From: a virus
DNA: 64,000 nucleotides
Strand: one strand, 5' to 3'
IMG/VR virus record: IMGVR_UViG_3300032268_000759
Span: 1-64,000 of that record
The position numbers were made by a program, and so were the translations under genes. Shown here in pieces: positions 1,348 through 49,636 of this stretch; the first letter of the stretch is position 1, and every line of letters starts with the position of its first letter. The notes beneath the pieces are model-generated. The model was not told the DNA's origin, searched no databases, and saw only the letters and a list, made by a program, of their open reading frames with translations.

Positions 1348-1979
1348 TGAAAGCCAAACCGCTTACAAAAGAAGATATATTGCGGGCAATGAGAAATACT
1401 AAAAGTAACAAAGCTGCGGCTCGTTATCTTAGTGTTTCATGGATGCATTATAAACGCTATGCTAAGTTATATAATGGAGAAGATGGTAGAACATTATTTG
1501 ATAATCATTTAAATCAAGCAGGTAAAGGTATACCTAAATTTTTAAATAATTCTAAAAAAGAACCAGCATTACTTGATTTATTAGAAGGTAGAGTACCAAT
1601 GACTAACTACCGACCTGAGAAAGTAAGAAGTCGTTTAATTAAAGAAGGTCTATTACAAGAGCATTGTTACCTATGTGGATTTAATGAACGTCGTGTATCT
1701 GATTATAAAATGCCTTTAATATTGGATTTTGTAGATAGGAATAAAAGAAACTACAAACAAGCAAATTTACGTTTATTATGCTATAATTGTTACTACATGA
1801 ATATAGGTGACTTATACACTAATAAACAACTGCATGGAATGGAAGATCATTTGACTACATTCAATAGTGAGGTGGATTGGGAGTTAGATGACTATCAAAA
1901 ACAACGACTACAAGAATTAGGTATGTATACTCCTCCAGACATAGAAAGTGATGGAACTGAATTTGTAAGTAAATGGTAA
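1347..1979 (+). CDS. HTH plus degenerate HNH/zinc-ribbon protein
   Basis: Residues 20-40 (KAAARYLSVSWMHYKRYAK) look like a helix-turn-helix. CYLCG near residue 107 and LRLLCYNCYYMN near residue 148 form the zinc site of an HNH-type fold, with LILDFVDRN between them. In active HNH nucleases the Asp is normally followed by His and the second Cys pair by His; here these are Phe and Tyr, so cleavage is doubtful and a DNA-binding or regulatory role is more likely. It overlaps the zinc-finger gene by one base. Confidence 0.65.
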   Translation: MKAKPLTKEDILRAMRNTKSNKAAARYLSVSWMHYKRYAKLYNGEDGRTLFDNHLNQAGKGIPKFLNNSKKEPALLDLLEGRVPMTNYRPEKVRSRLIKEGLLQEHCYLCGFNERRVSDYKMPLILDFVDRNKRNYKQANLRLLCYNCYYMNIGDLYTNKQLHGMEDHLTTFNSEVDWELDDYQKQRLQELGMYTPPDIESDGTEFVSKW

Positions 1980-1988
1980 TATTTATAT
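1979..1988 (+). promoter_or_regulatory. Late-type motif ATATTTATAT
   Basis: The motif begins on the last base of the previous stop codon and lies 3 bases before the ATG at 1992. It matches the class 2 sites found upstream of structural genes. Confidence 0.35.
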
Positions 1989-1991
1989 CAA

Positions 1992-2147
1992 ATGAAAAAG
2001 AAAAAACATATTGAAGTAATAACTGATTTTGATGAAAAGAAACAAAAACATCTAGAAAAATTAGCTACTCAGATGCTCAAAAATGATGATCGCAACAATA
2101 AGTTAAAAGAAAAATATATTGATAAAAAATTTTTAGATTTATTTTAA
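1992..2147 (+). CDS. Small basic protein, 51 aa
   Basis: This Lys-rich helical peptide begins MKKKKHIEVITDFDEKKQKH and ends KKFLDLF. It fits exactly between its neighbours, with one base before the next ATG. No family is recognised; size and charge suggest a nucleic-acid or protein adaptor, which is speculative. Confidence 0.6.
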   Translation: MKKKKHIEVITDFDEKKQKHLEKLATQMLKNDDRNNKLKEKYIDKKFLDLF

Positions 2148-2148
2148 C

Positions 2149-2448
2149 ATGGTTAAAGAAATAACAGTTCGTAATAACGAAGAGTTAATTGAAGTTATGG
2201 AAAATGGTAGTTATGAAATATCAAAATCTATAGTTGAAAACATTATAAAACATTTAAATAGTAAGAAAAAACGTGTACATGTTATAAGCATTTTCTGTGA
2301 AGAAGATCAGGCGGTTTATGACTTGACACTTGAAAGATCAAATTTCTTAAGTACACTCGAAAAGAATTTAACTACATTTGAGCAAGCCGAGGATTTTGAA
2401 GGTTGTATTGGTATTCAAAACGCAATTAATCAACTCAAACCCTCATAA
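2149..2448 (+). CDS. Hypothetical protein with UVR-like C-terminus, 99 aa
   Basis: The last 30 residues (LTTFEQAEDFEGCIGIQNAI) resemble the UVR helical hairpin of UvrB/UvrC and McsA, in which two short helices mediate protein-protein contact. A similar pattern, YFESIEEYEKCAFLIKIL, ends the protein at 34996-35412, so the two may share a fold. The N-terminal part is unrecognised. Similarity is by eye only. Confidence 0.65.
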   Translation: MVKEITVRNNEELIEVMENGSYEISKSIVENIIKHLNSKKKRVHVISIFCEEDQAVYDLTLERSNFLSTLEKNLTTFEQAEDFEGCIGIQNAINQLKPS

Positions 2449-2450
2449 TA

Positions 2451-2594
2451 ATGGCAAAAGCAAAAGCAAACACAACAGTTAAATCACACATCTCATCACC
2501 AAAAGTAAAAAGAAAAGGCATTCATGCCAAATCAAAATCAAGTAGTCTTAAATCATCAAAACTTTATAAAAAGTTAAGCAAAGGGCAGGGTTAA
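2451..2594 (+). CDS. Small very basic protein, 47 aa
   Basis: The product is mostly Lys, Ser and Ala (starts MAKAKANTTVKSHISSPK, ends KLYKKLSKGQG), without acidic residues, and is likely to bind nucleic acid. It begins 2 bases after the previous gene. Its last codons and stop lie within the 5' part of a terminator hairpin. Confidence 0.6.
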   Translation: MAKAKANTTVKSHISSPKVKRKGIHAKSKSSSLKSSKLYKKLSKGQG

Positions 2595-2608
2595 TCCGCC
2601 CTTTGTTT
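2583..2608 (+). terminator. Rho-independent terminator
   Basis: GGGC-A-GG pairs with CC-G-CCC across GTTAAT and is followed by TTTGTTT. The T-tract is also the start of promoter P2. Confidence 0.6.
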
Positions 2609-2637
2609 GGCCTCCCCAAATGTTGATGTTATATTTA
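2606..2637 (+). promoter_or_regulatory. Promoter P2
   Basis: TTTGGCC 2606-2612, 15-base spacer, GTTATATTTA 2628-2637. Drives the gene at 2661 with a leader of about 20 bases. The TTT of the -33 element is the tail of the preceding terminator. Confidence 0.85.
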
Positions 2638-2660
2638 TATTGTAATAAAAATAAATAGTT

Positions 2661-2963
2661 ATGGCGCAAAGAGGTAGAAAAAGTAAGTTACAAGTAGAAA
2701 CTGAGGCAGCAGAAGCATTAGCTACATCAATTAAATTTGAAAGACGTTATGTGGATGAGGATGGATCAGTTGAAGTTTGGAAGTATGATATTAGAAAAAA
2801 TCCAAATGGTCCATATGAAACAACAATGGAGTATCCAAAAGGTACTAAAACATTTGAACAAATACAAGAACTATTACCTAAAACTAAGCGTAGGTACTTA
2901 AACCCAGAAACAGGCAAAGATGTAGCTTATTCAAGAGCAAAGGAATTAGGACTTATAAATTAA
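2661..2963 (+). CDS. Hypothetical protein with basic N-terminus, 100 aa
   Basis: The start MAQRGRKSKLQ resembles an AT-hook-like basic arm (compare KRGRP in the protein at 21956). The middle has alternating charged and aromatic residues typical of a small beta-rich fold. It is a single-gene unit between promoters P2 and P3. No specific function is supported. Confidence 0.7.
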   Translation: MAQRGRKSKLQVETEAAEALATSIKFERRYVDEDGSVEVWKYDIRKNPNGPYETTMEYPKGTKTFEQIQELLPKTKRRYLNPETGKDVAYSRAKELGLIN

Positions 2964-2964
2964 G

Positions 2965-2996
2965 TTTGGCCTACCAAAAATAAGATGTTATATTAA
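2965..2996 (+). promoter_or_regulatory. Promoter P3
   Basis: TTTGGCC 2965-2971, 15-base spacer, G, TTATATTAA 2988-2996. The -33 element starts 1 base after the previous stop codon. Drives the Cro-like gene at 3022. Confidence 0.8.
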
Positions 2997-3021
2997 TATT
3001 AACATAAAAATAAAATAAGTT

Positions 3022-3234
3022 ATGAGCAAATTAAACAGAACTGCTAAGTTGAGTTTTTTCACAAGCAGAAAAAGAAGCGGAGATGCAACCCGTTTATCGG
3101 AAGTTACTGGTTATTCAGTATCACACATCAGTAATGTAATGTCAGGTGTACGTAGTGTACCTCAAGAGTTAGCGAATGAGATGTATAACATCAGTCGCAG
3201 ACGTATGAAGAACAGTGAGCGTTCAATCGCTTAA
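3022..3234 (+). CDS. Cro/XRE-like helix-turn-helix protein
   Basis: At 70 aa it is about the size of Cro-type repressors. DATRLSEVTGYSVSHISNVM is a good helix-turn-helix, followed by SGVRSVPQELANEMYNISRR as the third and fourth helices. It probably binds operators in the phage genome, but none is identifiable here. It has its own promoter and a strong terminator. Confidence 0.8.
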   Translation: MSKLNRTAKLSFFTSRKRSGDATRLSEVTGYSVSHISNVMSGVRSVPQELANEMYNISRRRMKNSERSIA

Positions 3235-3243
3235 TTGATTCCA

Positions 3244-3280
3244 GGGCATCCGAGTTGAAATAAACTCGGGCCCTTTTTTT
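3244..3280 (+). terminator. Strong rho-independent terminator
   Basis: GGGC-AT-CCGAGTT pairs with AACTCGG-GCCC across GAAATA and is followed by seven T. The T-run is shared with the TTTGGCT of promoter P4. Confidence 0.9.
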
Positions 3281-3309
3281 GGCTTTCCAAAGTAAAAATA
3301 TTATATTAA
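3278..3309 (+). promoter_or_regulatory. Promoter P4
   Basis: TTTGGCT 3278-3284, 15-base spacer, A, TTATATTAA 3301-3309. It starts in the T-tract of the Cro-like gene's terminator and drives the unit from 3324. Confidence 0.8.
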
Positions 3310-3323
3310 TAGAAATAAAGGTT

Positions 3324-3551
3324 ATGAAAAAGAATTTATCAATTACAAAATTGTGGTTACAGGCTAAAGATTTATTTGGAAAAGGTAAAATTGATAAAGC
3401 TGATGAGAATTTAGATTGGTGTTTAGTTATTCTATCTAAACATGCTTTAGCAGGTTCTAAAGGAACAGATTTACTAGAAGGTACTAAAATGGATGTTTGG
3501 TATGAGAGAGTTTGGACATCAATAGAACATATGGGTTTATTACCAGAATAA
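3324..3551 (+). CDS. Hypothetical protein, 75 aa
   Basis: The frame is open from 3279, but that stretch is promoter P4; the ATG at 3324 (MKKNLSITKLWLQAKDL) follows the promoter at the usual distance and is preferred. The sequence is helical with a possible TPR-like pattern (LFGKGKIDKADENLDWCLVIL). It is the first gene of a three-gene unit. Confidence 0.65.
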   Translation: MKKNLSITKLWLQAKDLFGKGKIDKADENLDWCLVILSKHALAGSKGTDLLEGTKMDVWYERVWTSIEHMGLLPE

Positions 3552-3552
3552 T

Positions 3553-3765
3553 ATGATTAAGAAAAAAAGACGTAAATACAGAAAACTTATTCCTGAAAAA
3601 GGATATGTTGTAATGACTGATGATTGTAGAGTATTCAGTGGACTAAAAGGTGGTTATCCTACATTTTCAGAAATCATTGATGAAGCAAAACAATTTACTG
3701 AAATTCATCAGTCAGAAATGTTACATTTAATGTACCCATTTAAATTAGAAACAATATGGCTTTAG
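3553..3765 (+). CDS. Hypothetical protein, 70 aa
   Basis: It has a very basic start (MIKKKRRKYRKL) and then a mixed alpha/beta pattern. It begins 1 base after the preceding gene and overlaps the next by 10 bases. No family is recognised. Confidence 0.6.
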   Translation: MIKKKRRKYRKLIPEKGYVVMTDDCRVFSGLKGGYPTFSEIIDEAKQFTEIHQSEMLHLMYPFKLETIWL

Positions 3766-4142
3766 GACAAAAAATAAGATATTTTATTAATAGTGTTAAA
3801 AATCTTATCAAGTGGTTTCCCATTATTTGGAATGACAGAGATTGGGATAGTGCTTATATTGAAGAAATGTTGTTATTTAAGTTGAATAACATGTATAAAC
3901 GATTCTCAGACCCAAATGCCACTTATGTTGATTGGAACAGTAAACATGCTAAACCTGCACTTAAAGCATTAAAACTATCTATTCAAATACTTAAACGTAG
4001 ACAAAGTAATTATTACACTGATTATTGGTGGAATAGAGGTCAAGAAGATAAAGATTTAATGATATCAAGTCAATTAGAACAAAGGGACTGGAAGTTGTTC
4101 TGTAAATTAATGGAAAAATATTCTGATTATTGGTGGGACTAG
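3756..4142 (+). CDS. Hypothetical phage protein with WNDRDWD motif, 128 aa
   Basis: The product contains IIWNDRDWDSAYIEEMLLFKL and two DYWW segments. The DRDWD-xx-LL-xxK pattern is one I associate with conserved proteins of unknown function in large tailed phages. It is rich in Trp and Tyr and has no membrane span. Last gene of the P4 unit. Confidence 0.7.
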   Translation: MALGQKIRYFINSVKNLIKWFPIIWNDRDWDSAYIEEMLLFKLNNMYKRFSDPNATYVDWNSKHAKPALKALKLSIQILKRRQSNYYTDYWWNRGQEDKDLMISSQLEQRDWKLFCKLMEKYSDYWWD

Positions 4143-4771: not shown

Positions 4772-5821
4772 ATGTCAACAGAAACAAACACAAATTTAGA
4801 AACTAACCAAACAGCTGAAACACATTCAGATGGAACTTCAGGTGGTGCATCATTTGATAATACAACTACAGCGTCAGCTGGTGTATCAACAGGAGATGAG
4901 AACGCCTCAATTGGTATTGAAGTATCTGCTAAAACTGGAACTGAAGCATCAGTTGATGGTGGTTTAGATGGTAATAATGTTTATGTAGAAGCAAGTTACT
5001 CAGACACAACTGAAGTTCATGTTACAGTAGATGGTCAAGCTAATGCTGAAGGATTTGGTGTTAGTGGTACGGTAGATGCTTATGCTAAAACAGGAAACGA
5101 AGCTAGTCTTGAAGTGAGAGCAGGTGATGAAGGAGTAGTAGCTAATGGAAATTTATCAGCAGGATCAGCAGTTGGTGTAGATGGAGAAGGAACAGTTGAT
5201 TTAAGAGAAGGTTCAGTAACAGCAGGTGCAGGTGTATCAGTTGGAGAGCAAGTTGGTATTGGTGGTGGTGGAGAAGCCACTTTAGTAGATGGTGTTGCTA
5301 CTGTAGGAGTTAGTGGTGAAGTAGCAGTTTTATTAGGTGTTGATGTTGATTTAAGTGTGAGTATTGATACAAATCAAATAGCTGAAGATGCTAGATTAGC
5401 TGCTGAGAAATCTGAACAATTAGCTAAAGAAACTGAACGAATTGCAAAAGTAGCTGCTGAAGAAACTGAACGAAAAGCTAAAGAAGTAGCAGCTGAAACT
5501 GAAAGAAAAACAAAAGCAGCAGCTGATGAAGTTGAAAGAAAAGCTAAGGAAGCAGCAGCTGAAACAGAAAGAAAAACTAAGGAGGCAGCAGCAGCAGCTA
5601 AAAAAGAAACTGAAAGATTAGCTGCTGAGACTGAAAGAAAGACAAGGGAAGCAGCAGCTGAAACTGAGCGAAGGACTAGAGAAGCAGCAGAAGCAGCTCA
5701 AAGAGAAACAGAAAGATTGGCAGCAGAAACTGAAAGAAAAACTCGTGAGGCGGCTGAGGCGACAAAAAGAGAACTTGAAAAAGTAGCTAAAAAAGCTAAT
5801 CCTAAAAATTGGTTTAGATAA
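4772..5821 (+). CDS. Gly/Val beta-repeat protein with 11-residue coiled-coil repeats, 349 aa
   Basis: Residues 1-195 are low-complexity Gly/Ala/Val/Thr/Asp with alternating small residues, as in beta-roll or beta-solenoid segments, and no signal peptide. Residues 200-335 are about ten consecutive 11-residue units near AAETERKTREA. Eleven-residue (hendecad) repeats give straight or right-handed helices, as in LEA, apolipoprotein-like and TolA-like rods. The end (KKANPKNWFR) is basic. It could be a structural rod or a membrane- or protein-binding filament; resemblance to TolA or IF-2 in searches would be due to composition. Confidence 0.75.
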   Translation: MSTETNTNLETNQTAETHSDGTSGGASFDNTTTASAGVSTGDENASIGIEVSAKTGTEASVDGGLDGNNVYVEASYSDTTEVHVTVDGQANAEGFGVSGTVDAYAKTGNEASLEVRAGDEGVVANGNLSAGSAVGVDGEGTVDLREGSVTAGAGVSVGEQVGIGGGGEATLVDGVATVGVSGEVAVLLGVDVDLSVSIDTNQIAEDARLAAEKSEQLAKETERIAKVAAEETERKAKEVAAETERKTKAAADEVERKAKEAAAETERKTKEAAAAAKKETERLAAETERKTREAAAETERRTREAAEAAQRETERLAAETERKTREAAEATKRELEKVAKKANPKNWFR

Positions 5822-5831
5822 AAAAAGGTTT

Positions 5832-5908
5832 GGTCAGGTGGGTGTAATGAGGGAAGGTCCCAAGTCCATTTAATGGTTACTTATCCGGTTCGAGTCCGGC
5901 CCTGACTA
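5832..5908 (+). tRNA. tRNA-like element with degenerate interior
   Basis: GGTCAGG (5832-5838) pairs with CCTGACT (5901-5907), discriminator A. CCGG-TTCGAGT-CCGG is a T-arm with a canonical loop. The interior does not fold as a standard D and anticodon arm; it offers GGGA/TCCC and CCAT/ATGG mini-hairpins. No anticodon can be assigned. The acceptor stem matches the two tRNA-like elements near 26.1-26.4 kb. Confidence 0.5.
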
Positions 5909-5924
5909 CTAAATTAAAATAAAT

Positions 5925-6176
5925 ATGGTTATAGCGATAACAATCTTATCTGTATTATTAGTTGTCACAATGTTATTTGTGACAGCATGTATAATACACA
6001 TTCTAAAAATTCAGAAAGAATTAGAATTAATAAGTAAAGAACAAACAAATCAAAATACAGACATTAGGAATACAATGGTATCACTTATGTCTTTAATTCA
6101 AGCCCTTAGAGAAGCATCTGAGGTAGAACAAATTAATAAAACTTATAATTATAATAATATAAAAGGAGAAGCATAA
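5925..6176 (+). CDS. Single-span membrane protein, 83 aa
   Basis: The N-terminal 25 residues are one hydrophobic helix (VIAITILSVLLVVTMLFVTA), followed by a helical, probably coiled-coil region (KIQKELELISKEQ) and a polar tail. It starts just after the tRNA-like element and ends 1 base before the next gene. Function unknown. Confidence 0.6.
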   Translation: MVIAITILSVLLVVTMLFVTACIIHILKIQKELELISKEQTNQNTDIRNTMVSLMSLIQALREASEVEQINKTYNYNNIKGEA

Positions 6177-6177
6177 T

Positions 6178-6447
6178 ATGGCAGATATGAATGTTAGTTT
6201 TGATGTTGAAGATATCATTTGGGGTATGGATAGATATGAAAAACAAGATATGGTTGATTCACTTTATGATGATGGTTTTGTTCCAAGTAATGTTAAAAAA
6301 GATTTAGATTTAGTAATTGATCGTTTACCATTAACTTCATTAGAACAAGAATTATCTGATTTATTAGATAAAGTATGGAATAATAGAAATGTTATTAATA
6401 ATAATGATTTAGAAATATTAAAACACTTATCTAAGAAAGGGATATAA
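6178..6447 (+). CDS. Hypothetical protein, 89 aa
   Basis: An acidic helical protein starting MADMNVSFDVEDIIWGMDRY. The stop overlaps the next ATG by one base (TAATG). No family is recognised. Confidence 0.65.
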   Translation: MADMNVSFDVEDIIWGMDRYEKQDMVDSLYDDGFVPSNVKKDLDLVIDRLPLTSLEQELSDLLDKVWNNRNVINNNDLEILKHLSKKGI

Positions 6448-6737
6448 TGGAAGTAGGAAGTTTAGTGGAGTGTGTTAATGGTAATTTTGAACATAAACAA
6501 ATTGAACTAATAGCGAATAGACCTAAACAAGGTAAAATATATACTGTACGTTTAATAAAACAATATCCAAGTAATAAAATAGGAGTATTATTAGAGGAAA
6601 TAGTGAATGAACCATTAATGTTACCTAATTTAGATGGTTTATTTGAACCAACATTTGATATAAATCGATTTAGAGAAGTGCAAGAAGGTAGTATTGAAGA
6701 GTTAACTGAGATATTAGAACTAGAAAATACTAAATAA
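6447..6737 (+). CDS. SH3-like small phage protein, 96 aa
   Basis: GSLVECVN, QGKIYTVRLIKQYP and IGVLLEEIVNEP form a small beta-barrel pattern, ending FDINRFREVQ. I recognise this layout from short conserved proteins of Bacteroidota phages, function unknown. Proteins at 16421 and 21394 have comparable small barrels (KVRFT motifs). Confidence 0.65.
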   Translation: MEVGSLVECVNGNFEHKQIELIANRPKQGKIYTVRLIKQYPSNKIGVLLEEIVNEPLMLPNLDGLFEPTFDINRFREVQEGSIEELTEILELENTK

Positions 6738-6741
6738 CAAG

Positions 6742-6773
6742 TTTGGCTCCTCAGGGAGCCTTTGTTATATTTA
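6742..6773 (+). promoter_or_regulatory. Promoter P6 with built-in hairpin
   Basis: TTTGGCT 6742-6748, 15-base spacer, G, TTATATTTA 6765-6773. GGCTCC-TCAG-GGAGCC (6745-6760) is a perfect hairpin followed by TTTGTTATATTT, so the element probably also terminates the upstream unit. Drives 6794 to about 9256. Confidence 0.85.
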
Positions 6774-6793
6774 CACTGTAATAAGAAACAGAT

Positions 6794-7234
6794 ATGAGAA
6801 AAATAGTTTATAATGCAATACAGACACCTGATGGTACTGTATTAGAATCAACACATCATCATGATTATAAAGAATATGTTGATACTAATGGTAAAATGTA
6901 TATAGTTGATGGTGGCTTAGACTATAGTAGACATTCATCAAATGGTGATGAAGTATTATTAACTAAATATCAAGATCAATCACATGAACAAATACGTGAG
7001 CATGCTTTTAGAGCAGGTTATGGTAAGCCAGGTACTTCAGATTATGGTACTTATAGAATAACTCGTATTGCAGATATGGATGATGAATATTTAAATGAGG
7101 CTATTAAGTATGTTAAACAATTTATTTTAGATGTAGCAAATAATGTTCCAACAGCATTAGATAAATATGATGATGATGAACATCCATTTGCTTTACAAGT
7201 ATTATTAAATGAAAAACAATATAGAAACATATGA
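6794..7234 (+). CDS. Conserved phage protein, MRKIVYNAIQTPDGT family, 146 aa
   Basis: The start MRKIVYNAIQTPDGTVLES, the HHHDYKEYVD segment and YIVDGGLDYSRHS are, to my recollection, shared by a widespread family of phage and prophage proteins of unknown function. The C-terminal half is helical. It overlaps the next gene by 4 bases. Confidence 0.7.
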   Translation: MRKIVYNAIQTPDGTVLESTHHHDYKEYVDTNGKMYIVDGGLDYSRHSSNGDEVLLTKYQDQSHEQIREHAFRAGYGKPGTSDYGTYRITRIADMDDEYLNEAIKYVKQFILDVANNVPTALDKYDDDEHPFALQVLLNEKQYRNI

Positions 7235-9271: not shown

Positions 9272-9919
9272 ATGAAAAAAATATTAGCAATTGTTACATC
9301 TATAATGTTATTTAGTTGTAACCAACATGAGAAAGATCATGGAAAAGAAAAAGGTGTATTAAGAATTCATGAAGGTAAATTTGCATTTTGTGGAGCATCA
9401 AGTGCTGTACCAACAGGTAAAAAAATTATAATACAAGGTGTAGAGTATAATGAAGGCTGTGCTGTTTGCCCTGTGTTAGATGGACCATCAATTTCAAACT
9501 TAGCAATGTATGGTAGTGGAGGTACTTGGGGTGAATTTAATGTAGAAAATAATTTTGAAACACCTGATGGAACAAATAATACAATATGGTCTTTATTTTG
9601 GTATTTTGATTCAACAACTACTGTTCCTCAATTTAATCCTGAAACTAAAAAGTGGGAACTAATGGCACCAATAAATCGTATGTTTACTATTGATATGAGT
9701 GACCCAGCAACCAGTGAAAGTAATATGTTCGCGATGCCAGGAATTATATTTGATACAACTGAAACAGGTATTGTTCTTGCTAAAGTATATGGTCCATTAA
9801 ATGAAGATGCTGTTCCATTAAGAATTGCAGTTCCAGTTAAAAATGGAGAAACTTCAGTTACAGCGGCTAAAGAAGGTACACCATACCCTGTAGGCACACC
9901 AATCCCTACTAGTAAATAA
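9272..9919 (+). CDS. Lipoprotein, 215 aa
   Basis: MKKILAIVTSIMLFSC is a type II signal peptide with Cys16 as the lipidation site; the mature N-terminus (NQHEKDHGKEK) is charged. The rest is beta-rich with Cys pairs (FCGASS; GCAVC) and no recognised domain. It should sit on the host periplasmic or outer-membrane face. Preceded by a late-type motif, so it may be made late, for example to alter the cell surface before lysis; this is inference. Confidence 0.7.
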   Translation: MKKILAIVTSIMLFSCNQHEKDHGKEKGVLRIHEGKFAFCGASSAVPTGKKIIIQGVEYNEGCAVCPVLDGPSISNLAMYGSGGTWGEFNVENNFETPDGTNNTIWSLFWYFDSTTTVPQFNPETKKWELMAPINRMFTIDMSDPATSESNMFAMPGIIFDTTETGIVLAKVYGPLNEDAVPLRIAVPVKNGETSVTAAKEGTPYPVGTPIPTSK

Positions 9920-12472: not shown

Positions 12473-12807
12473 TGAAAACACTCCTAATCTCCTTTTTATT
12501 AACGTTGCTAGTTGTATCAGCCTCAACCCCAACAAGAGAAAAAGAATCAGAAGTTGACATAGATGCTATGTTAACTAAATGCAACACAAATTTAACCAAA
12601 GCATTAACTGTTACTAAAAAAGCAGATCAACAGCAAAAAGCTAAAATGATTGAAATGCATGAAACTGTAACTAAGTTAGAAGAAGAAAAAAAAGAATTAG
12701 AAACTACATTAACTGAAACAAAACATGAATTACAAACTGTTAAAGAAGTTATCAATAGCAATGCTGTTGATACTGGTGAGCGCTTCGACATATTCCCAAA
12801 GGATTAG
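12472..12807 (+). CDS. Signal-anchored coiled-coil protein (spanin-like), 111 aa
   Basis: MKTLLISFLLTLLVVSASTP is a signal peptide or signal anchor. Residues 25-95 form a long Glu/Lys coiled coil (KMIEMHETVTKLEEEKKEL). Its 3' end contains, in another frame, the start and signal peptide of the next gene, the nested arrangement known from Rz/Rz1 spanin pairs. Confidence 0.65.
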   Translation: MKTLLISFLLTLLVVSASTPTREKESEVDIDAMLTKCNTNLTKALTVTKKADQQQKAKMIEMHETVTKLEEEKKELETTLTETKHELQTVKEVINSNAVDTGERFDIFPKD

Positions 12808-13525
12808 AATAATAGGAAACGATACATTTGTAGCATTTACTCGTGAACAAGCAAAAGCAGTTAATGATACATTTACATCTCAAAAAAACAATATTAGTCG
12901 TTTAAAAACACAGGATAGTTTAAACACAGCAAACATTCAATATCTTAAACAACAAACTGAAGCTAAACAATTAAAAGATAGTATCACTTATTTTGAGCAA
13001 ATACTTCCAACATTAACTGAAATAAAGAAATTATTAGTCACTCAAATTGAAACACCATTTAAAGGTAATGTTGAAATAGGAGTGGGAGCAGGCGCATCTA
13101 CATATTTTGGATCATATAGACCATTTAGTTCTGTTATTGATGGTAAATATTATATCCCAGTAGGTGCAGGTGTATTGAAGTATAACTTCTATAAACACTT
13201 AACAACTCAGTTTGAGGTAATGGCGACTCAAATATCAGCTGGCCCAATCAATAAACAAATAATGGCTGGCATGTTACTTGCAAATTATAACATTGCTCCT
13301 AACACATATAGTGTTCGAGTAGGTATGATCCCAGTAGTAAGTGTTGGATATACTGTATTTGGATTACCAAAAGCAGTAGTTGTAGGAGCAGGATTAAAAG
13401 GATACTTTACATCAAATACAGCACTTGAAATAAATGTTAGATACCAATTAACTAATATTGATGACATTGGAGGAAATGACCACTTTATGTGGGGTCACCT
13501 CATGATAACAAGAAAAATAAAATAA
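12725..13525 (+). CDS. Exported outer-membrane beta-barrel-like protein, 266 aa
   Basis: MNYKLLKKLSIAMLLILVSASTYSQ is a signal peptide with a clear cleavage site, encoded out of frame within the previous gene. A coiled coil (residues 40-95) is followed by alternating strands rich in Gly and aromatic residues (VEIGVGAGASTYFG, VGMIPVVSVGYTVFGLPKAV, ALEINVRYQLTNI) typical of Bacteroidota outer-membrane barrels. It could be the outer-membrane half of a spanin complex or a surface protein blocking superinfection. Confidence 0.7.
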   Translation: MNYKLLKKLSIAMLLILVSASTYSQRIRIIGNDTFVAFTREQAKAVNDTFTSQKNNISRLKTQDSLNTANIQYLKQQTEAKQLKDSITYFEQILPTLTEIKKLLVTQIETPFKGNVEIGVGAGASTYFGSYRPFSSVIDGKYYIPVGAGVLKYNFYKHLTTQFEVMATQISAGPINKQIMAGMLLANYNIAPNTYSVRVGMIPVVSVGYTVFGLPKAVVVGAGLKGYFTSNTALEINVRYQLTNIDDIGGNDHFMWGHLMITRKIK

Positions 13526-15147: not shown

Positions 15148-15729
15148 ATGAGAAACATTTTTAAAATTGATCCAGCAACACTTGAACCTCAACCGTTCAA
15201 TGTATTTAGAAAGATTATTATTACAACAGCAATTGTATCAACTGTCCTAAGTTCAATATTTTTATATATTGGATATAGTTTAGGTAGTGATGTATTAACA
15301 GGCTTATCAGAGGAAGAAAAATTAGTTATCATTCAAGAACATAATCAGTTTTCAGAAGATAGATTAATTGATAAACTAAAAGAGTTAAATGTTAAATTTC
15401 CTTATATAGCATTTGCTCAATCAAAACTTGAAACAGGTAATTTCACAAGTAAAGTATTTAAAGAAAATAATAATTTATTTGGGATGCGTGAAGCCAAACA
15501 ACGAATAACAACTGCTCAAGGTACAGAACATAACCATGCTTATTATACTACATGGGTTGAGTCAGTTCTTGATTACTCATTTTACCAATGTAAATACTTA
15601 TCTAGTATTAATAGTGAGGAACAGTACTTTCAATACTTAAGTCAAAGTTACGCTGAGAATCCAAACTATGTATCTATATTAAAGGGAATGATTATTAATG
15701 AAAATCTTAAAGCAAAGTTTGGCTCTTAG
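15148..15729 (+). CDS. Membrane-anchored GH73-like N-acetylglucosaminidase (endolysin candidate)
   Basis: One transmembrane helix (residues 22-46) is followed by a FlgJ/GH73-like domain: FAQSKLETGNFTSKVFKENN with the catalytic Glu, NNLFGMREAKQR, then HAYYTTWVESVLDYSFYQ. This enzyme class cleaves the peptidoglycan glycan strand. The anchor suggests a signal-anchor-release type endolysin or a wall-remodelling enzyme. The last codons (KFGS, stop) contain the -33 element of promoter P9. Confidence 0.8.
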   Translation: MRNIFKIDPATLEPQPFNVFRKIIITTAIVSTVLSSIFLYIGYSLGSDVLTGLSEEEKLVIIQEHNQFSEDRLIDKLKELNVKFPYIAFAQSKLETGNFTSKVFKENNNLFGMREAKQRITTAQGTEHNHAYYTTWVESVLDYSFYQCKYLSSINSEEQYFQYLSQSYAENPNYVSILKGMIINENLKAKFGS

Positions 15730-16420: not shown

Positions 16421-17038
16421 ATGAAAATAGGAGATAAAGTAAGATTTACAAATGATGGTAGTTGCTCAGCACCTACAGGTTCAACAGCAAGAGTAATTGG
16501 AATCAAAGCACCTTGGATTCAAGTAGAGTGGATTGATAAAGGAGATAGTGGACAAATGAATGGAAGTTACTATCCAGAACATTTTGAAGTAATTGAAGAA
16601 GTACAAAATAATAAAACAGTTATGTCAAAACAAAAACTAACAGTATCGGTTACTGATGTATTAGAGATTCATAGGATTGCTTGCACTAATTGGAAACAGA
16701 TAATTGTAAATTACTTATCAAGAGTAAATTCAGATCAAGAAATTACATTTAATCAAGAAGAAATAGATGAAATGTTTGAGGCAGCTACCAACTACCAAAT
16801 ACCATTACTTGAAAGAATATTTGGTGTACAATATACTGAATCTACATTAAAAGGTATAGCTAATGGTAAACCATTGTTTAGAGAAGATGCTAATGGAGAT
16901 GGAAAAGCGGGTATGATTGAGGTAAGAGCAGAAGATGAATATAAAAATAAAGCGTTTTGGTTGAGTCACATTTATAATTGGGAAATGAAAGAAGATAATA
17001 GTGGTATGTTAGTTTTAATTCCAACACTTAAAGACTAA
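16421..17038 (+). CDS. Protein with N-terminal SH3-like barrel, 205 aa
   Basis: MKIGDKVRFTNDG, TARVIGIKAPWIQVEWIDKG form a small beta barrel. The remainder is helical with an acidic stretch. The stop overlaps the ATG of the T9SS cargo gene, so the two are translated from the same message. No function is known. Confidence 0.65.
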   Translation: MKIGDKVRFTNDGSCSAPTGSTARVIGIKAPWIQVEWIDKGDSGQMNGSYYPEHFEVIEEVQNNKTVMSKQKLTVSVTDVLEIHRIACTNWKQIIVNYLSRVNSDQEITFNQEEIDEMFEAATNYQIPLLERIFGVQYTESTLKGIANGKPLFREDANGDGKAGMIEVRAEDEYKNKAFWLSHIYNWEMKEDNSGMLVLIPTLKD

Positions 17039-17733
17039 TGAAACAACTAATATTAATATTTACAATTCTTAGTATTGTTTTAATAATCAGCAATGTTTCA
17101 GCTCAAATGTCTTTTAACAACAAAACTGTGAGCGTAAGCGGCTGGGGGAATGATAATAATCCGAAAACTACCTTATGTGTCATAACCAATAATTCACCAT
17201 CTATAGCTGATTCAATGATTAATTGGTCAATAATATCTTTTGATATCCCAACAGGTTGGCAGTTTGATTTCTGTGATCCTTATGATTGTGTTTCTAATAT
17301 AGAATTAGGTTCTAACAACTTGTTTAAACTTAAAACTAAGACTTCAGGTCCTTTAAAAGGAGATTTCTATAGTAAATCAATCCCAGGTAATGCTACAATT
17401 AAAATACAATTGATATATACTAACAATTCGCACAATGCTGATACTATAATACTGATGGCAAGGGGTTGGGCAACAGGGTTAAATAATGTTAAAAAACAAA
17501 GTGAGGTAACTTTTTTTCCTAACCCAACAAAGGATATTATTACATTAAAATATGAAACAATAAAAGCAATTAATATAACTGTTTACAATGTTATGGGTGC
17601 AAAAGTAAAATCATTTATACATAGCAGTAACGAAACTTCCTTAAATATTAGCGATTTAGAAAAAGGATTGTACCATATTAGATTTTCAGACAATGGAAAC
17701 GTAACATCAAAATCATTTGTAAAAACCGAATAA
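17038..17733 (+). CDS. Secreted protein with type IX secretion (T9SS) C-terminal sorting domain
   Basis: A signal peptide (MKQLILIFTILSIVLIISNVSAQ) directs export. Residues about 155-231 are a type A T9SS sorting domain: FFPNPTKDIITLKYE, INITVYNVMGAKVKSF, LNISDLEKGLYHIRFSDNG, SKSFVKTE. This domain is recognised by the T9SS of Bacteroidota, which moves cargo across the outer membrane and anchors or releases it. The middle (residues 24-150) is a beta-sandwich-like domain, unrecognised. The gene looks host-derived and is in a phage operon with TAATG coupling, so it should be expressed during infection. Confidence 0.85.
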   Translation: MKQLILIFTILSIVLIISNVSAQMSFNNKTVSVSGWGNDNNPKTTLCVITNNSPSIADSMINWSIISFDIPTGWQFDFCDPYDCVSNIELGSNNLFKLKTKTSGPLKGDFYSKSIPGNATIKIQLIYTNNSHNADTIILMARGWATGLNNVKKQSEVTFFPNPTKDIITLKYETIKAINITVYNVMGAKVKSFIHSSNETSLNISDLEKGLYHIRFSDNGNVTSKSFVKTE

Positions 17734-17746
17734 AAATATAATTAAT

Positions 17747-17905
17747 ATGAAAACATTAGCAGGTTTAGTTTTATTACTAGTTATAATTCGACTATATATT
17801 ACTATTAGTAGTTTAATAGTTAATGGTTGGACATGGGATACTTTAATAGGAGTAGTAATTGTTACTTGGGGTATTTGGTTTTTTGAAAAATATAGAGCAA
17901 AATGA
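17747..17905 (+). CDS. Small two-span membrane protein, 52 aa
   Basis: MKTLAGLVLLLVIIRLYI and TLIGVVIVTWGIWFF are two membrane helices. Its stop overlaps the next ATG as ATGA. No family is recognised. Confidence 0.6.
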   Translation: MKTLAGLVLLLVIIRLYITISSLIVNGWTWDTLIGVVIVTWGIWFFEKYRAK

Positions 17906-18210
17906 GAAGAGCACTTAAAAAGAAAATCAATGTAATGGATGCTAGAACAACTCCATTAGAAATTATATATGAGTCACTAGTTAATTTTACTTGGGGTTTC
18001 TTAGGTAACAGCATAGTATTATTCATGGCTAAAGAAATGGATGTGGCTGTGTTTATTAATTTTATTCTATATTATACTTTAATATCATTTATTTTGAATA
18101 GAGCAAAGTACAAAACTAAATTAGGTAAATTTATTGTATTACCATTCTCAGCAGCGTTAGGTGCTTATAGTGGTTATATGTTTGCAAAATGGTTAACATT
18201 AGTTATATGA
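17902..18210 (+). CDS. Multi-span membrane protein, 102 aa
   Basis: A basic N-terminus is followed by about three membrane segments (SLVNFTWGFLGNSIVLFMA, VFINFILYYTLISFIL, FIVLPFSAALGAYSGYMF). Function unknown. Overlaps neighbours by 4 bases. Confidence 0.65.
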   Translation: MRRALKKKINVMDARTTPLEIIYESLVNFTWGFLGNSIVLFMAKEMDVAVFINFILYYTLISFILNRAKYKTKLGKFIVLPFSAALGAYSGYMFAKWLTLVI

Positions 18211-27374: not shown

Positions 27375-27394
27375 CAATGTTAAAAGAAACAAAT

Positions 27395-28045
27395 ATGAAA
27401 AATATATTAATAACAACAGTAGTAGGTTTAGCATTATTCACATCATGTGAAAAACCAGATCAAGGAGCTTACCCATGTCCAGATGGAAATTGTGATGGTA
27501 GATTTTGGGTTGAAACACCTACTACAGCAAAACAAGACAGTTTAGGTTATTGGCATGTTCCATTTTGGGGACCAAATTATTTCTCCATTAGAGGTGAATT
27601 AGATGAATTACATCCGGACTATGTTATAAATGGAGTCCCATTAATTGAAACCTCTTTTGATTCAGATTATTGGTTGTTGTTTGATACTATTCAATGGCGT
27701 TTCCCAGTGTATTCTCATTTGGGGTTATATCGTGATAAAAAATTTAAGGACCCAATTCCAATTGGTAATCGTACTTATACTTTAACTAATATAGCTAATT
27801 CTCACCCACCACTAAACATTGTTGGTTATCAGATATCTCCCCATATGTGTATGACGTGCCCGTACACTCCAACTCTGATTGGTACGTATAGTAAATACAA
27901 TTATCGCCCGAAACAAAACGTAGTATTCGATGATGAAATGATAGGTGACACAGCATCCATTTTTATTGAGGTGATGTTTAACTCGGATTTAGGCGAGCGA
28001 GTAACACGTAATTATAGAATGAATATTGTATTTGATCCTAAATAA
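27395..28045 (+). CDS. Lipoprotein, 216 aa
   Basis: MKNILITTVVGLALFTSC is a type II signal peptide (lipid on Cys18). The ATG at 27377 is in frame but sits at the transcript start; 27395 is preferred. The mature part is rich in Trp, Tyr and Pro, with paired Cys (PCPDGNC; CMTCP), and probably beta-structured. No family is recognised. It is expressed from a class 1 promoter, unlike the lipoprotein at 9272, so it may act during infection, for example at the host surface. Confidence 0.65.
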   Translation: MKNILITTVVGLALFTSCEKPDQGAYPCPDGNCDGRFWVETPTTAKQDSLGYWHVPFWGPNYFSIRGELDELHPDYVINGVPLIETSFDSDYWLLFDTIQWRFPVYSHLGLYRDKKFKDPIPIGNRTYTLTNIANSHPPLNIVGYQISPHMCMTCPYTPTLIGTYSKYNYRPKQNVVFDDEMIGDTASIFIEVMFNSDLGERVTRNYRMNIVFDPK

Positions 28046-47600: not shown

Positions 47601-49636
47601 GAGATTATATTGGTGATCCAAGACAGTTGGCTCAATCTAAAGATTTTTATCCTGATTTAAATACTTTAAGAGATGAATACTTTAAAAAATATACTTCAAA
47701 TTATAATTTAACTGATTATATTCGTTTAATAAAATACTTTGATAACTCATTATTTAAAATGATTAAAGATTTTGTTCCTGCAAGAACAAGTTTATCGTCA
47801 GGTATAGTTATTAAACAGCATTTATTAGAAAGAAATAGATACAGAGTACCTTCAGCTTCATACTCAGAACCATACTATACAGCATCAGTTAAATCATTTC
47901 CATTTGATTTTAACTCATCACAGTTATATAAAACTACAGCTGCTGGGGCAGGAGAATTTGATTCAGTATATATAGATAGTTTAAATCAAGCTTGGTCTGA
48001 ATCTATTGTCACTCCATTAGGTATAGTAAATAGAATTCATAATGATAAAAGTGAATTTTTAACAGGTGAATTAAGTGGAAGTACAATTGTAGCATCAACT
48101 CAAAGTTTAGGTCCAACTCCACTTTTATTTAATTTAGATTTAATATCTACAGATAATGGAGCAGGTTTAATCACATACTATGATATTAATTTTAAATTTA
48201 AATCAGATAAAACATATTATATTCAACTTAATATTAATAATACTGATACAACATTTTTAGGTAATATCTATGCTTTTTGGTTAGGTACAAGTTTATTAGA
48301 TTCAAGTGATATTATATATGAAAATGCTAGCATCCCAGTATCAACACTGTTATCTCCATTTATAAAAATTGAGAATGCTAAAACTAGAACATTAAGAGTA
48401 GTTAATGCTAGTTTATTTAATAATAATACATCTATATCTGCCTTAATATACGAAACTCCAAATGATTTACCTGAACCATTATTAAATAATGTTTCAATAT
48501 ATCCACCAAGTAGATATTTTATGGATATTGATTATTCATCAGGTCAACTTTCTCCAACTAATCAAGGAGTACTTATTACAGGATCAGCTACTAAAGCTCC
48601 TGTACAAGATTATAATTATAATGTTCGTAGAAGTACTTTACCAAGATATGCTGGTAGTAAATTAACAGGAGCAAAAATAAATGTTCATACAGATGGAGAT
48701 ATTAGTTATGGTAAAGAACCTGTAATTAACAACTACCAAACATCTTTTTTAACATTTAAAGAAATTAGAAATGCTTATCCTGAGTTAGTAGGTAAATCAA
48801 CATTATGGATTAATAGTCTAGTTGATAAAGATGGTAATCAATTAGCTGTAAATTTTAGTACTGGTTCAAATTACTATTATAATTTAATTGATAATTTTGG
48901 AAAAGATAGTCAAGTAAACTTACAAATAACTACAACACCTACAGGCTCAACATCAACTGATTTAGATTTATCTACAACTGTATATAGACCTGCTTTATTA
49001 TGGCCTAAAGTAGTATTAACCAATGAATCAGGAAGTACTTTAAATAGTGATAATACTATTAGATATGTAACTGCTTCAATAGCTATAAATGAAACTTTAA
49101 TTTCAAGTGGAGTTGTTTCACCTTACACTCTTTTAAGTTCTAGTGTGTGGGGAACAGGAGGATCAACTTTATTGAATGTGATAACATCATCAACCCAATT
49201 ATATAATACTTATGTAGCATCAGCTTTTTTCCCAAGTTATTCATTTAGTCAAAATAATACAACAACTTCATCAGTAGGTGGAGTTGGAGGATATGATCCA
49301 ATAACATTAGATATATCTCATATTAAAGTTGGAAATGAAATTAGATTTAATCAAGATGAAAGTAGAGTATATGTCATTAAAGAAGTAAATCTTAACCCTA
49401 TGTTATTTTATATATGGTTAGTTCTTGATAAACCAATACCTTCAGCTCATACTTCTTCATTAAATAATGGATTTTTAATCAGAGAATATCAAACTGATCC
49501 ATCTAAACTAGTAATAAATGCTCCTAAATTAGTAGGAGGCGCACCAGGATATTTAACACCACAATATATATCTCCTGATCTTATAGCGAGTTTAGATAAA
49601 ACAGTTGAAACTTTAAAAGAAACCGGAATATTATAA
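44627..49636 (+). CDS. Giant baseplate wedge/tail protein with LamG-like domain, 1669 aa
   Basis: The largest gene in the window. YKRIYHNVPYLFKKKGTIEG and LRALITLYGIPDTILRINEF (residues about 545-585) recall tail protein I/baseplate wedge modules. Residues about 640-860 are a LamG-like lectin sandwich (SIAFRFKTEGVSFF, SLVLERSESIYG, GWWSVLVTRTNSTHSLYVK, SYLGGF). The remainder is beta-rich. Position after gp6- suggests a gp7/gp10-type wedge role, possibly with glycan binding. Confidence 0.75.
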   Translation: MDRIVNIQNVDPTTLELQNYSSEDQNLISSFELENSFTSSVDYIEYTIYDFNQNILLYTDQFSNYSIINNKVQIDPENDLVSYGFDEGQYITNYNFFKNILGSSNDNTYYISEISSDRTEVRLDTTLIDNILVISSSTDFSIQLQQSNYYKDFYLNFGNNNLVIANNVLLDTSDPTNPTVLIKLYEPLPTNFDLKTELWVVESIADPLSYQISISLIFDSVDSGIQLNGPNFNISTKDRINNSSEYASFNSITNTTSQFGSSSLRYQLNSLLVEKGIEINIDYNSYYNFVFFSSAQTRLENFYYKMSLLEEYTANAKMSSTGSSSTSYYVSSSYNIYQAKIDDIITNFDGYEYFLYFESGSKCWPKTNDEQPYINATVNSLVVQNWLAEQYASASDYDNNLNPNALINTIPSYLRDDPSNSQYELFVEMVGQHFDSIWVYIKDIDNKYNADNRLDYGVSKDLVADVLRDLGVKIYQNNFSVDDLYTSFIGITPGGSSLPSTGNELITNYVTASLSPYVLPGYVITGYVNGKPIIVPLDDINKSIYKRIYHNVPYLFKKKGTIEGLRALITLYGIPDTILRINEFGGKNKDNSNDWDQWQNQYNYSLYSSLVDNYPTSESGSVYGSGTYGTSVYTSTSNKSGVVIIPWDKLSTTNTSPASIAFRFKTEGVSFFYPSQSLLFNELSLGGNAFSLVLERSESIYGTYSGSGAPISPTYDWGTLKLILPDTSVSCSVYLPLFNSGWWSVLVTRTNSTHSLYVKNKINNGEDGNQLGFQASSSVISSNPSWNNVGNSYLGGFRSGVTSSLISGKIYTPFLGTFQEFRYYSLPLNEGTFDDFVMNPYSIEGNTIDGAQSSVEILKLRAPLGSILDIDVSQSARTSVHPSLTVVPTTSSFYNGTNNYTITGSFQFVSNTETIFLDQFPAGIRNTINNKIKIAQTILPTGDTLSPYIRIQQDSPVSGSYTKDLNLLEVAFSPQNEINEDIIAQLGYFNLGDYIGDPRQLAQSKDFYPDLNTLRDEYFKKYTSNYNLTDYIRLIKYFDNSLFKMIKDFVPARTSLSSGIVIKQHLLERNRYRVPSASYSEPYYTASVKSFPFDFNSSQLYKTTAAGAGEFDSVYIDSLNQAWSESIVTPLGIVNRIHNDKSEFLTGELSGSTIVASTQSLGPTPLLFNLDLISTDNGAGLITYYDINFKFKSDKTYYIQLNINNTDTTFLGNIYAFWLGTSLLDSSDIIYENASIPVSTLLSPFIKIENAKTRTLRVVNASLFNNNTSISALIYETPNDLPEPLLNNVSIYPPSRYFMDIDYSSGQLSPTNQGVLITGSATKAPVQDYNYNVRRSTLPRYAGSKLTGAKINVHTDGDISYGKEPVINNYQTSFLTFKEIRNAYPELVGKSTLWINSLVDKDGNQLAVNFSTGSNYYYNLIDNFGKDSQVNLQITTTPTGSTSTDLDLSTTVYRPALLWPKVVLTNESGSTLNSDNTIRYVTASIAINETLISSGVVSPYTLLSSSVWGTGGSTLLNVITSSTQLYNTYVASAFFPSYSFSQNNTTTSSVGGVGGYDPITLDISHIKVGNEIRFNQDESRVYVIKEVNLNPMLFYIWLVLDKPIPSAHTSSLNNGFLIREYQTDPSKLVINAPKLVGGAPGYLTPQYISPDLIASLDKTVETLKETGIL

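Follow-up and report, generated by a model that had tools for sequence, protein, structure and literature searches.

Proteins that carry a sorting domain of the type IX secretion system (T9SS) have been described from phages before. Cryophage is reported to have three T9SS type A cargo genes, for which its authors propose superinfection exclusion or competition (PMC7468147), and T9SS-domain proteins are also encoded by the crAss-BACON cluster 2 phages (PMC6949934). Proteins that follow the Q-rule, i.e., the occurrence in Bacteroidota of signal peptides with a glutamine after the cleavage site (PMC5837995), have also been noted in phages of Porphyromonas gingivalis (PMC10367356). The use of host secretion systems by phages for display on the outside is little documented, and T9SS was noted only in passing. 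The gene discussed here resembles those of Cryophage in that proteins with a type A C-terminal sorting domain (CTD) are phage-encoded and lie in variable genomic islands; it differs in its passenger, an orthologue of a host surface protein instead of an endoglucanase, a GH39 or a PA14 protein, and in belonging to a T4-like phage. With crAss-BACON cluster 2 it shares the presence of T9SS sorting-domain proteins among phage genes, whereas those are crAss-like phages with BACON repeats and the genes lie near head genes. Since phage-encoded T9SS cargo was already known, ours is not a new kind of protein, and the strategy, which an earlier note on this DNA called unusual, is not without precedent: apart from Cryophage and crAss-BACON cluster 2, phage relatives also carry T9SS cargo. 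As far as we searched, two things appear to be new: in a T4-like phage, an orthologue captured from a host in its full length, and a cohesin-type cargo that is conserved and has a member in a cultured phage.

The window that we analyzed comprises positions 1 to 64,000 of IMG/VR record IMGVR_UViG_3300032268_000759, a T4-like phage of 154,840 bases. Its T4-type large terminase (72769-74346 of the record) has its best named matches in the Flavobacterium phages immuto (59% identical), and further phage genes encode baseplate wedge proteins, an ATP-dependent DNA ligase, a thymidylate synthase, and a glucosaminidase endolysin. Because no tyrosine integrase was detected in the record, the phage is likely to be lytic. 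The earlier picture of a T9SS cargo in a lytic-type phage holds for the type A cargo, the T4-like terminase and baseplate, and the lack of a detectable integrase. The features of the locus, all on the plus strand, are:

15148..15729, +, glucosaminidase-type endolysin, left conserved flank (75% identical in contig L111)
16421..17038, +, upstream phage gene, 205 aa; its TAA overlaps the ATG of the cargo gene; homologue in the 197-kb phage contig L110
17038..17733, +, phage-borne T9SS cargo gene, 231 aa; TIGR04183 and PF18962 above cut-off, full-length host orthologues
17038..17103, +, Sec signal peptide, residues 1-22; predicted cleavage before Q23 (Q-rule), A22-Q23 conserved
17104..17490, +, passenger domain, residues 23-151; homologue in 54/64 genomes of one Bacteroidota family, no Pfam or PDB match
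17272..17289, +, CDPYDC motif, C79 to C84, likely disulfide; C79, D80, and C84 invariant in 11/11 homologues
17515..17724, +, type A T9SS sorting domain (CTD); profile matches and PDB fold matches
17902..18210, +, 102-aa membrane protein, right conserved flank (82% identical in L111)

The frame 17038-17733 starts with ATG, runs without internal stop for 231 codons, and shares one base of its start codon with the stop of the upstream phage gene. The product had been read as a protein with a signal peptide and a type A sorting domain, and the profile searches bear out the latter: TIGR04183 matches residues 160-229 of 231, at the extreme C-terminus, with 46.9 bits (E=2e-12; curated cut-off 23 bits), and PF18962 scores 52.2 bits (E=7e-14; cut-off 27 bits). 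The type B model TIGR04131, proposed for the same comparison, is not listed for the product at E<=1. In the whole 154,840-bp record this product is the sole match to TIGR04183 or PF18962. The signal peptide, assigned by eye, reads MKQLILIFTILSIVLIISNVSA, and the residue that follows the predicted cleavage site is a glutamine; A22-Q23 is invariant across the five close host orthologues, and Q23 is found in 11/11 aligned homologues. Fold prediction, suggested earlier for the passenger, gave a fair model of the CTD (pLDDT about 70-82) and an unreliable one of the passenger (about 32-49; AlphaFold2, six sequences), for which AlphaFold2 on one sequence was likewise of low confidence. From the fold search only matches of the CTD, the sole part of the model with fair confidence, were used: it resembles the mirolase CTD (8qb1) and the translocon-bound CTDs of NucA and RemA (8glk, 8gl6). 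Ig-like domains are common in phage structural proteins, and a CTD-like beta-sandwich might accordingly be a merely structural or glycan-binding part of a virion protein. We consider this very improbable for a product with a predicted cleavable Sec signal that follows the Q-rule, whose gene lies near the ligase and endolysin genes instead of in the tail/head block (which begins at about 28 kb), and whose full-length orthologues are bacterial chromosomal genes.

No family among the Pfam and PDB profiles matched the passenger, PADLOC (uninformative for superinfection exclusion proteins) had no match for it, and PHROGs has no family for the 231-aa protein. Contrary to what was first stated, the passenger can be recognised: one Bacteroidota family has a T9SS surface protein encoded on the chromosome, and the phage gene is very likely a captured orthologue of it. 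A scan of 84,980 prokaryote genomes returned five full-length relatives (L088-L092) with 68-79% amino acid identity, all in Bacteroidota MAGs whose names point to lake, reservoir, pond, and activated-sludge samples; the nearest is L088 (MAG ZE-13may13-124), with 82.7% nucleotide identity. In 5/5 MAGs, on contigs of up to 279 kb, the orthologue occupies one syntenic chromosomal place, in the order recX, Nfu-type scaffold, Omp28-like T9SS protein (opposite strand), and cargo orthologue, with a DUF4920-like lipoprotein and PDH E1-beta next in four of the five. Names of unscanned neighbours are sequence readings, while Omp28 and CTD matches come from profile searches, the Omp28 match being under its Pfam cut-off. 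The Omp28-like protein (about 1750-3850, minus strand, in L088-L092) has a CGPC or CPPC motif and is encoded head to head with the cargo orthologue; a similar pairing occurs in some distant members (L106, L109), and the two host proteins may act together.

Searched by itself, the passenger has a match in 54 of the 64 genomes of the donor GTDB family, nearly always one per genome. Across the phylum, a single-sequence search of 296 genomes retrieved the donor family's own member only, and a profile search had matches in 13 of 395 genomes, weak ones except for the family's own member. SprA is encoded in all five nearest genomes, together with 86-129 T9SS CTDs each. In 11 homologues including the phage copy, 23 positions are invariant, so that the phage copy keeps all of them; they include Q23, W63, W74, C79, D80, C84, the PNP motif, and G210/Y212. 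The phage copy thus resembles the host gene in full length, in identity, and in its invariant residues, and differs from it in that the latter belongs to the bacterial core genes and is more strongly constrained by purifying selection. The recX/Nfu/Omp28-like neighbourhood is absent around the phage copy, which is surrounded by phage genes, as a captured gene would be. The product is very likely a T9SS cargo of host-gene origin; by sequence comparison, the phage most likely captured the gene intact, from a Bacteroidota lineage near L088. The cargo gene also indicates, indirectly, which lineage this uncultured phage probably infects.

The nearest phage relative, L111, has the endolysin and the 102-aa membrane protein in common with our phage. 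Between these flanks, over 1.6 to 2.2 kb, the gene content differs, and L111 has no T9SS gene. In L110 the homologue of the 205-aa upstream gene also overlaps the next gene by one base, but that is a different gene. The cargo gene therefore lies in a variable island. Matches to the Bacteroidota promoter pattern were no more frequent than expected by chance, and none was located just upstream of the cargo gene. A host-like gene that is unique in its record could also betray an assembly chimera or bacterial contamination. We find this scarcely credible here: both flanks are syntenic with a phage contig, the one-base overlap is with a phage gene, the GC content is phage-like (0.293 versus 0.357 in L088), the nearest host copy is just 82.7% identical, and the other genes of the host locus are missing.

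The phage gene groups with L088 (support 0.99), and its GC content has drifted to the phage value. Simple polarised counting of substitutions gave 28 nonsynonymous and 8 synonymous changes for the phage branch; since synonymous sites are saturated, a codon branch model was used instead. In this model omega is 0.17 on the phage branch versus 0.067 elsewhere, below 1 (p=0.0018) and 2.6 times higher than in the hosts (p=0.0095). The phage branch is under purifying selection, weaker than in the hosts, and its raised omega is compatible with relaxation. As some of this branch may represent evolution in the host that preceded capture, not all of the purifying signal has to date from the phage era, and omega therefore supports, without proving, a function in the phage. 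The raised omega and the substitution counts, saturated as they are, might suggest a neutral hitchhiker, i.e., a host gene recently captured, useless to the phage, and heading for decay, and the gene was indeed found in one phage only: no other viral copy came up when viral contigs were scanned, either with the protein or with alignment A1 of host and phage sequences. Such a gene would hardly be expected to show an open frame with all invariant residues kept and an omega below 1, a start that overlaps the upstream stop, and a phage-like GC content of 29%; in addition, T9SS cargo has been repeatedly retained by related phages. We judge this explanation improbable. The retained invariant residues and the near-universal, mostly single-copy presence of the passenger in the donor family would also fit an unchanged function, whereby the phage copy sustains the normal envelope function of the host protein, much like an auxiliary gene and without an effect on adsorption. 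This is an unlikely though serious alternative, since omega on the phage branch exceeds that of the hosts and the close relative L111 does without the gene.

The explanation that we favour, and hold to be somewhat probable, is that a captured host gene is exported by T9SS during infection and remodels the surface of the infected cell. The product would be exported by Sec, cut before Q23 with cyclisation of the latter to pyroglutamate, and would fold into a small domain with a disulfide; the translocon of the host's T9SS (SprA/PorV) would then move it across the outer membrane by means of the type A CTD. Secretion during infection is quite probable. The surface would thereby gain an additional version, slightly altered, of a protein resident in the host, and the remodelling would most plausibly consist of competition with, or masking of, that protein, resulting in less adsorption by other phages or by the phage's own released progeny. 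Superinfection exclusion is perhaps the benefit. In Flavobacterium columnare, exposure and resistance to phages go along with mutations in gliding genes linked to T9SS (PMC9233685). T9SS-dependent surface components can therefore matter for adsorption, which makes masking or replacement of such a component a reasonable first hypothesis, one that the authors of the Cryophage study have put forward too (PMC7468147).

Among 50 related viral records, found via the ligase and the upstream gene, TIGR04183 is above cut-off in six, with two unrelated passengers. One is a 185-aa protein of a 124-kb relative (L192, 1471-2028, minus strand) that combines a signal peptide followed by Q with a T9SS CTD and is encoded next to a tailspike-like gene; its passenger has no recognised identity. 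The other, in L193-L197, is a protein of ~630 aa with cohesin and dockerin-like domains and a T9SS CTD. Its family amounts to 41 contigs in a further IMG/VR scan (L198-L237 among them), several near-identical; all inspected complete ORFs (22/22) have a signal peptide followed by Q and a PNP-type C-terminal tail, and PF18962 is above cut-off in 14/14 tested records. A relative is gp15 of the cultured Flavobacterium phage immuto (Immutovirus immuto, vB_FspM_immuto_2-6A), annotated as cohesin domain-containing only, with signal peptide, Q, and a CTD of 34.6 bits (PF18962 cut-off 27). The openly accessible literature that we searched contains no description of gp15 as T9SS cargo. In immuto (NC_055915.1, 11598-13422) the cohesin-type protein is divided into gp14 and gp15, each starting with a signal peptide and Q. 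Immuto gp15 and L198-L237 are like our gene in stemming from T4-like phages and in having signal peptide, Q-rule, and CTD; unlike it, they have a cohesin/dockerin-like passenger that is conserved among phages and unrelated to that of 17038-17733. No T9SS CTD was found in 45 terminase-related records, mostly short fragments.

Since several relatives have tagged proteins, such phages probably rebuild the surfaces of infected cells. More tentatively, and with rather less than even confidence, we propose that T4-like Bacteroidota phages systematically use the host T9SS, a conserved cohesin-type cargo and interchangeable accessory cargos, captured host surface proteins included, coating or altering the infected cell and so controlling further adsorption. 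With a captured surface protein and a cohesin family in a cultured phage, surface remodelling by T9SS and the control of superinfection become testable questions.

A CTD match in the 735-kb megaphage LR756501.1 was rejected as a typical C-terminal tag because it is internal, covering residues 84-154 of a Fib_succ_major protein of 446 residues. There, the product of 5815-7155 (L191) has an internal T9SS-type CTD followed by the Fib_succ_major domain, and the record has another CTD match at 48860-49051.

Elsewhere in our phage, 12725-13525 encodes a protein of 266 aa whose N-terminus looks like a signal and precedes a Q (STYSQ); it has no homologue in the related phage loci and is possibly another exported protein. 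The products of 9272-9919 and 27377-28045 both have lipoprotein-type signal sequences; the phage may therefore send more proteins to the envelope of its host. A long run of genes that closes the record (141315-154763) reads as sugar-nucleotide, glycosyltransferase-like, and aminotransferase-like functions, which suggests phage-directed changes of surface glycans.
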